Origin: an uncultured Ruminococcus sp.
Lineage (GTDB): Bacteria > Bacillota > Clostridia > Oscillospirales > Acutalibacteraceae
Assembly (NCBI GenBank): GCA_902773325.1
Contig: CACYDW010000036.1
Span: forward strand, 1 to 51,911
Direction: 5' to 3'
Length of the DNA stretch: 51,911 bases
The notes under the pieces are model-generated. The model made no database searches, had not been told where the DNA came from, and saw only the letters and a list, made by a program, of their open reading frames with translations. Below are positions 39,057 to 43,806 of this stretch, piece after piece (position 1 is the first letter of the stretch; each line of letters starts with the position of its first letter). The position numbers were made by a program, and so were the translations under genes.

Positions 39057-39090
39057 AAAAAAGTCCTGACACGAAAGTGGCAGGATTTTT
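39057..39090 (+). terminator. Terminator of tRNA-Pro
   Basis: AAGTCCTGACAC (from 39061) pairs with GTGGCAGGATTT around GAAA and is followed by TTTTT, just beyond the tRNA. Confidence 0.85.
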
Positions 39091-39175
39091 GTCTTGTGTG
39101 ATTTGTTGATTTCAGAACCGGCTTTCACGGCTTCAAATTTATTAAATTTTTTATCAAGAAAATACGTAAAAGCAC

Positions 39176-39204
39176 TTGAAATTTTATGTGAAGTGTTATA
39201 TAAT
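39176..39204 (+). promoter_or_regulatory. Promoter of a candidate small RNA
   Basis: TTGAAA (39176-39181) and TATAAT (39199-39204) with a 17-base spacer. No ORF with a ribosome binding site starts before the terminator at 39337. Confidence 0.75.
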
Positions 39205-39210
39205 ATACTT

Positions 39211-39386
39211 GTCGGTGAGAACCGACATTACTGTACATGGTATCTATCAGATACACAGAACACCCCCGGATTGTCAGTTCCGGGGGTGTTCTGTATTTAG
39301 AGCATTATTTTATACTTTCTTCTGAAAATGAATTGTCCAAAATCCTTTCAAACCTGCGGTCTGTTTGAAAGGATTTTGGCTTTTTT
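39211..39386 (+). ncRNA. Candidate structured small RNA (about 175 nt)
   Basis: After the promoter at 39176, four stem-loops follow in series: gtcggt/accgac (39211-39226), gtatct/agatac (39240-39254), a 15-bp GC-rich stem (39256-39270 with 39279-39293), and a 17-bp terminator stem (39337-39353 with 39363-39379) ending in TTTTTT. The only internal frame (ATG at 39238) lacks a ribosome binding site. I do not recognise an RNA family. The third stem could itself be a weaker terminator, giving an RNA of about 85 nt. Inference from promoter and structure only. Confidence 0.5.
39337..39386 (+). terminator. Strong intrinsic terminator
   Basis: The 17-base arms 39337-39353 and 39363-39379 pair perfectly around a 9-base loop and run into six T (39381-39386). 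It insulates the downstream lipoprotein promoter region. Confidence 0.92.
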
Positions 39387-39403
39387 GGAGATGAGCTCTT
39401 AAA

Positions 39404-39458
39404 TTCCACATAGATTCCTTATACTTTCCCTATGGTTTCCAAAATCAGGGTCTATAAT
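39404..39458 (+). promoter_or_regulatory. Four phased TTCC direct repeats plus -10 box: putative OmpR-family activator site
   Basis: TTCC occurs at 39404, 39415, 39426 and 39437, exactly 11 bases apart, within 11-mers attccacatag, attccttatac, tttccctatgg and tttccaaaatc. A TATAAT -10 (39453-39458) follows, but the -35 position (39430-39435) reads ctatgg, a poor match. Direct repeats at one helical turn with a missing -35 are typical of activation by OmpR/PhoB-type regulators; such a regulator is encoded two genes downstream (41703). Confidence 0.6.
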
Positions 39459-39509
39459 ACAGACAGTAAAAACAAAAACAAAAAAACATACCCGAAAGGA
39501 GTTTTTATT

Positions 39510-40931
39510 ATGTTAAAAAAATCAGCTTCTATTCTTTTTGCAGCCGCCCTTGTTTGTTCATCATTAGCAGCTTGTACGCAGAGTGTGTCAGATAGCCGTA
39601 TTAACGATGCTATATCTGTTGTATCTGATAGCAGAGCACTGTCTGACAATCTTTCAGACGAAGCTCAGGCTCAGGAAGCTTCGGACGTGACACAGTCAGA
39701 TACAGAATCCTCCGACACTGCACAAGCTAACACAGAATCCTCCGACACTGCACAAGCTAACACAGAATCCTCCGACACCTCACAAGCAAACACAGAGCCC
39801 TCTGATACTGCACAGGAAAGCTCCGACATCGTGAGCTACACTGTAAACATCAATGGCCATCTTGATACAAGTGACTTGTTTTCTGACCGTGATTTAAAGC
39901 AGACAGCAGATACATCAACTGCAAGAGCAATTACCGTATCCGACGGTAAAACAATTGATATCACAGAAGAAGGAGTTTATCTCATTCAGGGAACAGCCCG
40001 CAACTGTCAGATCAGAGTGGAAGCAGATAAACAGGCTAAGGTGCAGCTTGTACTTGACGGTGTCAGCATTACCAACGAAAGCACACCTGCTGTTTATGTT
40101 GTATCAGCAGATAAATGCTTCATTACAACTACCAATACCGAAAACACGCTTTCCGTTACGGGAACATTTACCGCAGACGGGGATACCAATACAGATGCAG
40201 TCATCTTCTCAAAGGATGATCTCGTACTGAATGGAACGGGTACACTTTCGGTTCTTTCATCAGCAGGAAACGGTATTTCAGGGAAAGACGATCTAAAGAT
40301 CACTGGAGGCACTTATAATATCACCAGTGCAAAAGGCGCTATCGAAGCAAATGATTCCATTGCTGTCTATAACGGAAATTTCACCATCAATTCATCCAAA
40401 GACGGTCTGCACAGCGAAAATAACGATGATGATACCGTAGGCTGGATCTATATTTACGGAGGTACCTTCCATATCACAGCGGCAAGTGATGCTGTTCAGG
40501 CAACAACTGCTGTACAGATTGACGGCGGTACTTTTGATCTGAAAGCCGCAGAAGGAATTGAAGCGACCTACGTCCAGATCAATGACGGTACGATCAATAT
40601 TTCGGCGTCAGATGACGGTATCAATGCAGCCAATAAAAGCAGATCCTACTCTACACCTACCATCGAAATCAACGGTGGATATCTGACGATCGTTGTGGGA
40701 CAGGGTGATACCGATGCAATAGATGCCAACGGAAATATTATTGTCAACGGCGGAACGATCGATATCACCGCTCAGATGTCCTCCTTCGATTATGACGGCA
40801 CAGCTCAGTATAACGGCGGAACGATCATAATCAATGGTACACAGGTGGATTCTATTCCGCAGTCCATGATGGGCGGCAGAGGAGGAATGGGAGGTATGAA
40901 CGGCGGCTTTGGAGGCAGAAACAGATGGTAA
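39510..40931 (+). CDS. Cthe_2159-type (DUF4353) carbohydrate-binding beta-helix lipoprotein
   Basis: A 473-residue exported protein. A signal peptide ends in the lipobox LAAC (residues about 18-21), followed by a Ser/Thr/Asp linker with four near-identical 10-residue repeats (NTESSDTAQA), encoded by 30-base DNA repeats. From about residue 110 a right-handed beta-helix domain begins (Cthe_2159/PF14262: GISGKDDLKITGGTYNITSA, DGLHSENNDD, YGGTFHITAASDAV, INDGTINISASDDGI), a family shown to bind acidic plant polysaccharides in Clostridium thermocellum. The C-terminus is Gly/Met-rich (MMGGRGGMGGMNGGFGGRN). AAAGGAG lies upstream of the ATG. Probably a surface lipoprotein controlled with the genes that follow. 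Confidence 0.88.
   Translation: MLKKSASILFAAALVCSSLAACTQSVSDSRINDAISVVSDSRALSDNLSDEAQAQEASDVTQSDTESSDTAQANTESSDTAQANTESSDTSQANTEPSDTAQESSDIVSYTVNINGHLDTSDLFSDRDLKQTADTSTARAITVSDGKTIDITEEGVYLIQGTARNCQIRVEADKQAKVQLVLDGVSITNESTPAVYVVSADKCFITTTNTENTLSVTGTFTADGDTNTDAVIFSKDDLVLNGTGTLSVLSSAGNGISGKDDLKITGGTYNITSAKGAIEANDSIAVYNGNFTINSSKDGLHSENNDDDTVGWIYIYGGTFHITAASDAVQATTAVQIDGGTFDLKAAEGIEATYVQINDGTINISASDDGINAANKSRSYSTPTIEINGGYLTIVVGQGDTDAIDANGNIIVNGGTIDITAQMSSFDYDGTAQYNGGTIIINGTQVDSIPQSMMGGRGGMGGMNGGFGGRNRW
39702..39816 (+). repeat. 30-base tandem repeats in the lipoprotein linker
   Basis: Units start at 39702, 39732, 39762 and 39792. The first two are identical over 30 bases and later ones diverge, which suggests recent expansion by slippage. 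They stay in frame and lengthen the linker between membrane anchor and beta helix. Confidence 0.85.
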
Positions 40932-41004: not shown

Positions 41005-41568
41005 ATGAAAAGCAGAAAAACAGTGATGATGTGTACCATGATGGCGGGAGCGTTGATTGCAGGCAGTTCGCTGACTGCATTTGCAGCAGATACCGTTGTA
41101 CCTGTTGCAGATGAACCTTCCGTATCAGTCAGCGAGAATACTGATGCAGAGCATGATGACTCTGAAACTGACAGCTCCACAGTTCCCGAAAAAACAAAGC
41201 GCAGCAGACATTCACGAAACACGATCGGCAATTCCGATGAGGAAAATAGTAACGCGCCGAAAACGGGTCACCACCCAACCCATTCCTCCGGGAACTCTGA
41301 TGACGTTAGTGATGATACAGCAAGTTCTCACAGACACAAGCCTCAGCAGATAGAATCCGATTCAGAAGAAAACGCTCAGGCAGCAACAGAGGAGGACGGC
41401 TCTGCAAAAAGTCGCCCGATGAAGAAGGGCAGAAGACCTCACAAATCTGCTTCTGATACTGAAACCGATACTGACAGTTCTGCAAAGAGGAACAGATCAA
41501 AGCCGTCGTCCGACAGTGAGCAGACACCGTCTGAATCAGCGGCAGATGCATCTTCAACAGTTGTCTGA
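41005..41568 (+). CDS. Secreted low-complexity disordered protein
   Basis: A 187-residue protein with a typical signal peptide (MKSRKTVMMCTMMAGALIAG, cleavage likely after LTAFA-A). The mature part has no hydrophobic core: it alternates acidic/Ser-rich stretches (DAEHDDSETDSS, DTETDTDSS) with basic His/Arg/Lys clusters (KRSRHSRN, SSHRHKPQQ, KKGRRPHKS), so it is probably disordered and polyampholytic. I recognise no family. AAAGGA at about 40989 favours ATG 41005 over ATG 40996. It lies 73 bases after the beta-helix lipoprotein and before a two-component system; it may bind surface polymers, metal or the lipoprotein (inference). Confidence 0.75.
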   Translation: MKSRKTVMMCTMMAGALIAGSSLTAFAADTVVPVADEPSVSVSENTDAEHDDSETDSSTVPEKTKRSRHSRNTIGNSDEENSNAPKTGHHPTHSSGNSDDVSDDTASSHRHKPQQIESDSEENAQAATEEDGSAKSRPMKKGRRPHKSASDTETDTDSSAKRNRSKPSSDSEQTPSESAADASSTVV

Positions 41569-41617: not shown

Positions 41618-41666
41618 TATACGAAAACCTGCATGATTCACTTTGAAAAATGCAGGTTTTCGTATA
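41618..41666 (+). terminator. Hairpin overlapping the two-component promoter
   Basis: The arms 41618-41633 and 41651-41666 (atacgaaaacctgca and its complement) form a 16-bp stem. The right arm overlaps the -10 TATAAT of the regulator promoter. The stem could terminate upstream transcription, but it lacks a T-run, so a regulatory cruciform or operator is also possible. Confidence 0.55.
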
Positions 41667-41670
41667 TAAT
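41643..41670 (+). promoter_or_regulatory. Promoter of the second two-component system
   Basis: TTGAAA (41643-41648) and TATAAT (41665-41670) are separated by 16 bases, within the inverted repeat at 41618-41666. Confidence 0.65.
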
Positions 41671-41702: not shown

Positions 41703-42374
41703 ATGGCAAGATTACTAATTGTAGACGATGAACCGGATATTGTGGAGCTGATCAAGCGATATGCCCTTCGGGAGGGCTACGAGGTAACGTCTGTAGGGGA
41801 CGGTGCACAGGCAATTGAACTCTGTAAAAAGCGGGATTTTGATATCATCATCATGGATGTTATGATGCCTGATACGGATGGCTTTACGGCAAGCAAAAAA
41901 ATACGCGAAAGCAAGGATATTCCTATTTTAATGCTGTCGGCACGAGGCTCGGAATATGATAAGCTGTTCGGTTTTGAATCAGGTGTAGATGACTATGTAG
42001 TCAAGCCATTTTCTCCGAAGGAGTTGATGGCAAGAATCAAGGTGATCATCCGACGTCATGCGGTGAAAGCACCCAAAAATGAAGAAAGTCTCTCCTGCGG
42101 AGGAATCGAGATCGATCTGCCCGGACATGAATTGCGCATAGATGGAGAAAAAGTGGAGCTTACTGCCAAGGAATACAGCATACTTTTGTATCTGATGCGA
42201 AACAAGGGAATTGTGCTTTCAAGAGATCAGATTCTCAGCGAGGTATGGGGATATGACTATTTCGGTGATGACAGAACCGTTGACTGGCAGATCAAGCTTC
42301 TGAGAGGAAAACTCGGTAAATACAGAGAATACATTCATACCATCAGAGGGGCGGGATATAAATTTGAAGGTTAA
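41703..42374 (+). CDS. OmpR-family response regulator
   Basis: A 223-residue regulator. Receiver domain with acidic DDEP, phosphoacceptor in IIMDVMMPDTDG (about residue 52), Thr/Ser at LMLSARGS and Lys in VVKPFSP. The winged helix covers about 125-223 (VELTAKEYSILLYLMRNKG, DRTVDWQIKLLRGKLG, IRGAGYKFEG). GGAG is 8 bases before the ATG; a GTG at 41694 overlaps it. It overlaps the kinase gene, and the phased TTCC repeats upstream of the beta-helix lipoprotein are a plausible binding site. Confidence 0.93.
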   Translation: MARLLIVDDEPDIVELIKRYALREGYEVTSVGDGAQAIELCKKRDFDIIIMDVMMPDTDGFTASKKIRESKDIPILMLSARGSEYDKLFGFESGVDDYVVKPFSPKELMARIKVIIRRHAVKAPKNEESLSCGGIEIDLPGHELRIDGEKVELTAKEYSILLYLMRNKGIVLSRDQILSEVWGYDYFGDDRTVDWQIKLLRGKLGKYREYIHTIRGAGYKFEG

Positions 42375-43806
42375 GCTAAGATCGTTTAAAATGAAGCTCT
42401 GGCTGTATTTTGTTTTTTTTACTGCTCTGATTTTTACTGTATTGTGGCTGCTGCAAACGGTTTTTATTCAAAGCTTTTATAATGAAATGCTCATCAGCAA
42501 CACAAAAGCAGCGGCAGAGCAAATCGCCGTGAGTTACACAGAGGATAATTCTGCAGAAATAATTGATAAAATATCCCTGAGCAATTCTCTTCTGGTTTAT
42601 ATCGCAGACAGTAACGGAACGATCCTGTACTGTTCTGATCAGTTCAGAGGTTTATCCGGAAAAAACCACGGAAAAGAACAGAATAGCCGGCATTCTGCTG
42701 AAAGCATCAGACGTCCCGAAGAATACAGAAGCCTTCCTGATGACTTTGACCTGTTTCTGGAGTCGCTTGAAGCGTCAGAAAACCGTATTTATGAAAAAAT
42801 CGAAGATGGACTGTATATATACGGCGCTTATATAGATGGCGAAACAGAACAATCTATTTTATATATAAGTACCGTACTGGAAGCAGTTGGACCTGCGGTG
42901 GATATAATCCGTCTACAGTTGGTATGGGGAACGGTGCTGTCACTGATCATCGGATTTATTCTTGCATGGTTTATAGCAAGAGGCTTTGCACGACCCGTGG
43001 CACGGCTGACAAAAAAGGCAGAGCATATAGGAGAAGATGATTTTCCGCAAGAGTTCAGAAAGGGATTCTGTTCAGAACTGGATGAGCTGAGCGATGTGCT
43101 GGATGAAACATCCGATAAGCTGCGAAAATCAAGAGATTTTCAGAGAGAACTGCTTGCCAATGTTTCTCATGATCTGCGTACACCTCTGACGATGATCAAA
43201 GGGTATGCAGAAATGGTAAGAGATTTTTCACGGACAGATGAGCAGCAGTGCAATGACGATATTGAAGTGATTGTCCGTGAGGCAGACAGGTTATCTGCTA
43301 TGGTGAACGAGATTCTGGAGTATTCCGCAATGCAGAGTGCCGAACAGCTGCCGGCATTGGAAACAATCGATTTCAGCGCGGTTGTCCGAAGGGTATGCGG
43401 CAATTTTGACAGCCTTTACAGCAGAGAGGGAGGGCATATCCGAACAGATATCACAGAAAATATCATGGTGAACGGAAATATCGGCAGACTGGAACGGGCT
43501 GTCTATAATCTGCTGGATAATGCAGTCCGACATAACGGGGAGAATAAAGTGGTTGAGGTTGTATTGTTGAAAGAAAAGAATCAAGCGATCCTTCATATCA
43601 TCGACCAAGGCAGTGGTATTCCTCTGGAAGAAATCAACAGTATATGGGACAGATATTATACCTATCGTCAGCGAAACAAAAAAGGTGTTTCCGGACTGGG
43701 GCTTGCAATCGTCCAGCAAATTGTGCAGATGCACGGCGGTGCTTGCACAGCAGAAAGCACCATGGGCAAAGGAAGTATATTTACAATTACTCTGCCCATG
43801 ATCTGA
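42364..43806 (+). CDS. Sensor histidine kinase
   Basis: A 480-residue kinase overlapping the regulator by 11 bases. TM1 is at about residues 12-36 and TM2 at about 184-206, enclosing an extracellular domain of roughly 145 residues rich in charged residues (GKNHGKEQNSRHSAESIRRP). HAMP follows (RGFARPVARLTKKAEHIGED). The H-box is ANVSHDLRTPLTMIKG (His269), then YNLLDNAVRHNG (N box), DQGSGIPLEEI (G1) and GVSGLGLAIVQQIV (G2). TTG at 42364 is used if the overlap is correct; ATG at 42391 is the alternative. The signal sensed is unknown. Confidence 0.92.
   Translation: MKVKLRSFKMKLWLYFVFFTALIFTVLWLLQTVFIQSFYNEMLISNTKAAAEQIAVSYTEDNSAEIIDKISLSNSLLVYIADSNGTILYCSDQFRGLSGKNHGKEQNSRHSAESIRRPEEYRSLPDDFDLFLESLEASENRIYEKIEDGLYIYGAYIDGETEQSILYISTVLEAVGPAVDIIRLQLVWGTVLSLIIGFILAWFIARGFARPVARLTKKAEHIGEDDFPQEFRKGFCSELDELSDVLDETSDKLRKSRDFQRELLANVSHDLRTPLTMIKGYAEMVRDFSRTDEQQCNDDIEVIVREADRLSAMVNEILEYSAMQSAEQLPALETIDFSAVVRRVCGNFDSLYSREGGHIRTDITENIMVNGNIGRLERAVYNLLDNAVRHNGENKVVEVVLLKEKNQAILHIIDQGSGIPLEEINSIWDRYYTYRQRNKKGVSGLGLAIVQQIVQMHGGACTAESTMGKGSIFTITLPMI

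Follow-up and report, generated by a model that had tools for sequence, protein, structure and literature searches.

The window examined in this report is a stretch of 51,911 nucleotides from an uncultured Ruminococcus sp., in which a short array of TTCC repeats precedes the genes for a predicted lipoprotein and a predicted secreted protein, with genes for a response regulator and a sensor kinase farther downstream (Table 1). The lipoprotein scores 276.6 bits against the PF14262 model (cut-off 25.8), which places it in the Cthe_2159 family, and its translation contains a lipobox-like LAAC. The charged protein encoded behind it gave no match in a Pfam search and clusters with proteins encoded near other arrays of the kind described below. 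The response regulator, referred to here by its start coordinate as 41703, is composed of a receiver and a winged-helix C-terminal domain. For the kinase, a whole-protein structure model served only for choosing the ectodomain, whose own predicted structure (pLDDT 79, pTM 0.73) gave weak fold matches to the PAS domain 3cwf (E 1.2e-3) and the WalK receptor domain 4ywz (E 2.5e-3), none of them below 0.001; the modelled ectodomain thus weakly resembles PAS domains, that of WalK among them, a likeness that names no signal.

Table 1. Features in and around the TTCC array (positions are those of the window)
Feature	Coordinates	Strand	Evidence or remark
Terminator-like hairpin with T run, just 5' of the array	39337..39387	+	fold z-score -3.8
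TTCC x4, 11-bp period (39404, 39415, 39426, 39437)	39404..39440	+	proposed operator array
-10 element TATAAT	39453..39458	+	12 bp past the last TTCC
Ribosome-binding site AAAGGAG	39495..39501	+	read from the sequence
Cthe_2159-family lipoprotein	39510..40931	+	PF14262, E 2.3e-82
Secreted low-complexity charged protein	41005..41568	+	signal-peptide-like N-terminus
Strong terminator-like hairpin between secreted-protein and regulator genes	41618..41666	+	-27.8 kcal/mol, z -8.4
Ordinary promoter-like site TTGAAA-N16-TATAAT before the regulator-kinase pair, without array	41643..41670	+	promoter scan
OmpR/PhoB-family response regulator, helix RTVDWQIKLLR; proposed array binder	41703..42374	+	PF00072 + PF00486
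Sensor histidine kinase, predicted extracytoplasmic PAS-like domain	42364..43806	+	PF00512, PF02518

The hairpin just upstream from the array has perfect arms of 17 bp with 9 nt between them, is followed by CTTTTTTG, and likely insulates the array promoter. Farther upstream, between a tRNA gene and the array, positions 39176-39305 hold a good promoter-like site (TTGAAA-N17-TATAAT) followed by three hairpins that together fold very stably (z -7.6), possibly a small RNA; an Rfam search of this stretch gave no match at the gathering score, and the intergenic DNA from 39060 to 39400 has no relative among the loci compared. The promoter-like site in front of the regulator gene overlaps the second hairpin of Table 1, with its -35 in the loop and its -10 where the stem ends.

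Since the regulator and kinase have a promoter of their own beside a hairpin, the array would here most simply control the lipoprotein and the secreted protein. The initial annotation had envisaged a self-contained regulon of surface protein, secreted protein and sensor, but the regulator and kinase have their own promoter in this genome, and the set of targets elsewhere is wider.

The array and its promoter in the window

The four TTCC starts at exact 11-bp phasing and the TATAAT at 39453 that were noted initially are confirmed by reading the sequence, and the array is far beyond chance for the window. A three-copy version of the pattern, with the 11-bp period, has two overlapping matches in the window, both being this same single array, whereas 100 dinucleotide shuffles average 0.00. 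Arithmetic under independence gives an expectation of ~2.5e-5 four-copy arrays in the window, or ~0.04 by the same arithmetic if any 4-mer at any period from 8 to 13 is allowed to count. Within the whole genome (2.1 Mb, estimated to be 94% complete) the three-copy pattern matches at the window array only, and a reversed control pattern matches once.

Hexamers located 15-19 bp 5' of the TATAAT agree with TTGACA at 0-2 of 6 positions, and a promoter scan of the window called nothing at this site. The claim that the promoter has no usable -35 holds to that extent in the window, but not for the class of arrays to which it belongs: the best hexamer at a spacing of 16-18 bp has at least 3 of 6 matches to TTGACA in 42 of the 54 related arrays described below (78%), as against 45% for positions taken at random from the window. 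In the relatives' arrays partial -35 elements exceed the background and a missing -35 is no rule of the class, which weakens the step in which the array replaces a -35; its virtual absence from the window favours activation there.

Recurrence of the array in the genus

Exact matches to the four-copy pattern number 62 and are distributed over 39 of the 64 genomes of the genus, the window's own genome counted, as compared with 3 matches to the reversed control pattern across the same 64 genomes, all of them in one genome. Seven of the 61 matches outside the window were kept out of the alignment, which takes the genomes with a match from 39 to 37 (36 others plus the window's own). Six of these, on G010 C9, G031 C174 and G039 C153, were dropped as they look like simple tandem repeats and coincide with no hits of the model introduced below; the match on G033 C321 also stands outside the alignment, although the model scores it at 50.6 bits.

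The 54 arrays from the 36 other genomes align without gaps over 70 columns to the consensus ATTCCACA-N3-ATTCC-N6-ATTCC-N7-TTCC-N12-TATAAT, where N6 is mostly AAAT plus N2 and a conserved CA lies downstream; the adenine after the first unit is conserved in 53 of the 54. A -10 element of the form TA....T stands at one fixed distance in every one of the 54, which had been chosen by the 11-bp four-copy pattern, such that the -10 distance played no part in the choice. A sequence-only model built without the window gives the window array 63.4 bits (E 3.6e-17), the third best score of the genus, and the next hit in the same genome has only 15.4 bits. The genomes from which the model was built match it by construction; hits outside the building set were obtained in G009, G027, G039 and G052.

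Random placement of the array in related genomes, which by the initial annotation was to have counted against its proposal, was looked for and not seen.

Genes behind the arrays of related genomes

By hand count, the first gene 3' of the 54 arrays is a Cthe_2159-type lipoprotein gene in 34 cases and, in 10, the start of an operon whose leading gene encodes a 2-hydroxyglutaryl-CoA-dehydratase D-type (HGD-D) protein; an ApbE or 4Fe-4S/FMN-binding protein follows in 4, the regulator in 2, a secreted protein in 1, and no such gene is in view for the other 3. In G011 and G024 the array lies directly before the regulator gene. The domain assignments of the targets rest on one example per class. That of the HGD-D class encodes two HGD-D proteins, a NapH-like 4Fe-4S protein, an activase and a DsbD_2-type membrane protein, and that of the ApbE class encodes ApbE with a Fer4_5/FMN_bind protein. 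Against the double-cubane reductase model NF040772 the two subunits at locus L094 score 140.6 and 315.2 bits, by which the predicted HGD-D proteins are related to the double-cubane reductases, yet each falls below the cut-off of 350 and they are not counted as members.

Thirteen of the 64 genomes carry the first HGD-D gene, and 12 of these have a model hit just upstream from it (ten with at least 47 bits, G012 with 33.7 and G032 with 29.2); in the thirteenth, G045, the gene starts at the contig edge. The window's own genome has no HGD-D gene at the search threshold. Array-led HGD-D operons, often with a Cys-containing secreted protein, were observed at L094, L105, L116, L120, L125, L132, L134, L135, L138 and L142, and among the literature matches listed there was no description of such an operon.

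Among 60 orthologs of the lipoprotein, 39 have an array at most 900 bp upstream and 21 do not; about 7 of the latter begin at most 510 bp from the edge where their contig starts, and several are extra copies, the other copy in the same genome having the array. Weaker sites (35.3 bits in G021, 31.1 in G053 and 25.9 in G042) precede further secreted-looking proteins.

Other TTCC-containing repeats were encountered during these comparisons. Loci L275, L276, L277 and L279 have two to three copies of TTCC/TTTC upstream of a glycosyltransferase-like gene and of another gene, whose product has a membrane anchor (labels assigned by eye); in G046 these weak repeats lie ~2.5 kb ahead of an OmpR-family regulator other than 41703; and at L278, near position 2606, a weak TTCC array precedes genes for a receiver-only protein, a kinase-like protein and a third protein that we take to be VTC-like. 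These weak repeats may mean that related motifs serve other members of the OmpR family.

Co-occurrence of the array with the regulator

A close relative of the 41703 regulator was defined by E<1e-85, a threshold that was fixed after the genus results and carried unchanged to a sample of 250 genomes of the family. Among the 64 genomes of the genus, 41 have an ortholog by this threshold and 41 have an array (at least 30 bits): 35 have both, 6 the regulator only, 6 the array only and 17 neither (Fisher 5e-6). The six with the array only (G001, G017, G028, G035, G046 and G052) are estimated to be 81-100% complete, G046 being estimated as complete, and they are assembled in 170-430 contigs, so that the regulator gene may be missing from the assemblies. 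The suggestion that another regulator with a DWQIK helix serves the array in these genomes found no support, none of the 30 other OmpR-family loci read there having such a helix.

In the family sample, where an array was accepted by the model at E<=1e-5, it was detected in 5 of the 6 genomes with a close regulator and in 0 of the 244 others (Fisher 8e-10); three of the listed genomes belong to the window's genus, and the sample is assumed to be identical in the regulator and array searches. The sixth close-regulator genome, G223, has an array matching 13 of 16 positions ~580 bp before its regulator; such matches also arise as background (4 of 33 loci examined have one that does not resemble an array), which makes this array weak by itself. 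A further 42 genomes of the family have a regulator only at E values from 1e-85 to 1e-75, and in 24 of these, whose loci were inspected, neither a DWQ helix nor a convincing array was found. By these searches the array co-occurs with the predicted orthologs of regulator 41703.

The recognition helix in more distant Clostridia

The comparison of recognition helices was made on the best 80 regulator loci of a larger number, with some contigs shared with the genus set. Loci whose helix reads RTVDWQ-K-LLR (DWQIKLLR) have an upstream array matching at least 14 of 16 positions in 28 of 38 cases, as opposed to 0 of 34 for loci with DWQIKQLR, DTHIKM or DTHIKN. These counts omit loci with less than 700 bp upstream as well as L172 (SQMKLLR, no array) and L220 (WQH, array), and they score as misses L163, with a divergent array, and L167, L201 and L208, with arrays of 13 of 16. 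Two control hits at 15 of 16 arose in this comparison and are taken to be the divergent array of L163 itself. When all 4-mers were scanned at eight periods, TTCC at 11 bp stood out, and did so in the DWQIKLLR group only (16 of 41); a search for phased k-mers that might be an alternative operator of the DWQIKQLR and DTHIK groups found none. The helix groups are largely clades, and few independent events underlie the contrast of 28/38 with 0/34; in a midpoint-rooted tree, the DWQIKLLR rows nevertheless fall into two separated parts, with arrays in both.

Among Lachnospiraceae and other Clostridia, the array precedes a small secreted protein encoded directly 5' of the regulator (15 loci, picked for having arrays), and its third TTCC unit is often degenerate. 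Small secreted proteins of this array-led kind, with repeated YSYxxGQQ-like motifs, were seen directly before the regulator at L171, L175, L183-L185, L189, L190, L193, L200, L205, L212 and L214, and might possibly be feedback partners of the kinase. Three loci of the Ruminococcus flavefaciens type (L170, L173 and L174) have no exact array; inspection by eye finds looser TTCC copies 21 bp apart with a similar -10.

A proposed mechanism and its alternatives

We consider it probable, at roughly 0.78, that regulator 41703, of the OmpR/PhoB family, has its operator in the array and would activate from it a promoter with little -35. The phosphorylated regulator would bind head to tail with one monomer for each TTCC unit, and the four units would accommodate two tandem dimers on one face of the helix. 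With the last unit just 3' of the would-be -35 and the third just 5' of it, the bound protein would cover the -35 region and would bring in RNA polymerase at a promoter whose -10 is good. In the window's genome, the lipoprotein gene would be the only target found, with the secreted-protein gene behind it, and in relatives the predicted operator would also serve the regulator gene, secreted proteins, the operon for the double-cubane-like reductase and its activase, and the ApbE or 4Fe-4S/FMN-binding membrane protein. Direct binding, activation rather than repression, and dependence on phosphorylation are what we infer from this arrangement, and the signal might possibly be a surface or redox cue received through the PAS-like domain of the kinase. 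What was proposed initially, that the neighbouring regulator has an OmpR/PhoB-type operator here, finds strong support in the comparisons, in that the -10 spacing, the shared gene set, and the association with orthologs and with one helix all point to it. Against the reading weigh the six genomes with an array and no ortholog detected, the six with the regulator alone, the array-less lipoprotein orthologs, the largely clade-bound helix groups, the partial -35 elements of the relatives and the weak repeats near another regulator in G046.

Activation and repression need to be distinguished within this scheme, as the same regulator might bind the array and block polymerase by covering the -35. 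The array does span the -35 position, many relatives retain a partial -35, and ArcA offers a precedent in the targets described for it, where, of 66 repressed targets whose start site is confirmed, 52 have ArcA sites that overlap the polymerase-bound region (PMC3798270). Repression is nevertheless unlikely in our estimation, as the window's poor -35 leaves little basal promoter to repress and a single geometry relative to the -10 throughout the aligned arrays fits an activator better. The array could also be a genuine operator whose main binder is another OmpR-family regulator, or several, with the 41703 pair being a frequent companion. The six array genomes without a detected ortholog and the weak repeats near another regulator in G046 speak for such a binder, which we regard as quite improbable in view of the family sample, the arrays directly before the regulator gene in G011 and G024, the helix association, and the fragmented state of the array-only assemblies. 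A chance or low-complexity origin of the repeats, with no regulatory meaning, might be suspected from the short AT-rich intergenic setting and from the matches in other genomes that look like simple tandem repeats; the excess over the reversed pattern in the genus, the single -10 spacing and the associations with regulator and helix reduce this to a negligible prospect.

Implications

The array is very probably where the neighbouring regulator binds, and it would mark a new regulon, a limited group of genes shared among relatives, of a type that is itself well known. Among the matches listed from the open-access literature there was no regulatory description of this gene set, for which a precise, searchable operator and a likely regulator are now available in rumen and gut bacteria that are known largely through metagenome assemblies. 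Members of the Cthe_2159 family are described in PMC6712302 as binders of cellulose and acid sugars, and their combination with ApbE/FMN and double-cubane-like proteins among the array-led targets suggests a redox link. It is conceivable, though doubtful, that in Clostridia of the rumen and gut a single two-component system ties a plant-wall-binding surface lipoprotein, by way of the shared four-unit TTCC operator, to a route of electron export; the composition of that route, an ATP-driven double-cubane-like reductase with 4Fe-4S and flavinylated membrane proteins, is put forward just as tentatively. If the coupling were true, the surface binder and the extracytosolic electron-transfer proteins would be made together once the PAS-like domain of the kinase registers a surface or redox cue. 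The tie between a cellulose- and pectin-binding family and these redox proteins makes a shared function testable, and the helices DWQIKLLR, with TTCC arrays, and DWQIKQLR, without them, provide a natural comparison of specificity.

Comparison with known regulatory systems

One class of array-led operon in relatives resembles a known system: the combination of ApbE with FMN_bind/4Fe-4S membrane proteins is like that of the extracytosolic flavinylation systems, the account of which, in the parts that deal with these systems, makes no mention of this regulator, of the array or of a link to the Cthe_2159 lipoprotein (PMC8238504). With respect to the regulator itself, 41703 scores 203.8 against the NCBIfam PhoB model (cut-off 296.2) and 202.5 against the YycF model (cut-off 340), and it reaches the cut-off of no named regulator among the matches listed (25 of 100 models). 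The pho box bound by PhoB consists of tandem 11-bp half-sites in place of the -35. The array is like it in having such half-sites over the -35 position and unlike it in its TTCC core, its kinase and its targets.

The usual sites of OmpR/PhoB regulators are described as direct repeats with an 11-bp spacing, in many cases of more than two units (PMC3798270, PMC4168254, PMC3960148), and what was found here, namely 11-bp direct repeats, a predicted two-domain regulator and fixed placement relative to the promoter, is consistent with a tandem operator of this family. The WalR/VicR site TGTWAH-N5-TGTWAH, as presented in PMC4168254, is likewise an 11-bp direct repeat recognized by a Gram-positive OmpR-family regulator, and the conserved adenine after its half-site has a counterpart after the first unit of the array; the array differs from it in having four units rather than two half-sites and a TTCC core instead of TGTWAH. 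The 21-bp spacing in the R. flavefaciens-type loci recalls the tolerance of VicR for an added helical turn described in the same source (PMC4168254), and the modelled ectodomain of the window's kinase weakly resembles that of WalK. The E. coli ArcA boxes, as characterized in PMC3798270, differ from the array in sequence, in a layout that is variable where the array has four evenly spaced units at a constant distance from the -10, and in that the sites of most repressed ArcA targets overlap the promoter. They are like it in being repeats 11 bp apart from centre to centre that are recognized by an OmpR/PhoB-family regulator, in their redox theme, and in that the basic pair is often extended by one to three further repeats (PMC3798270).
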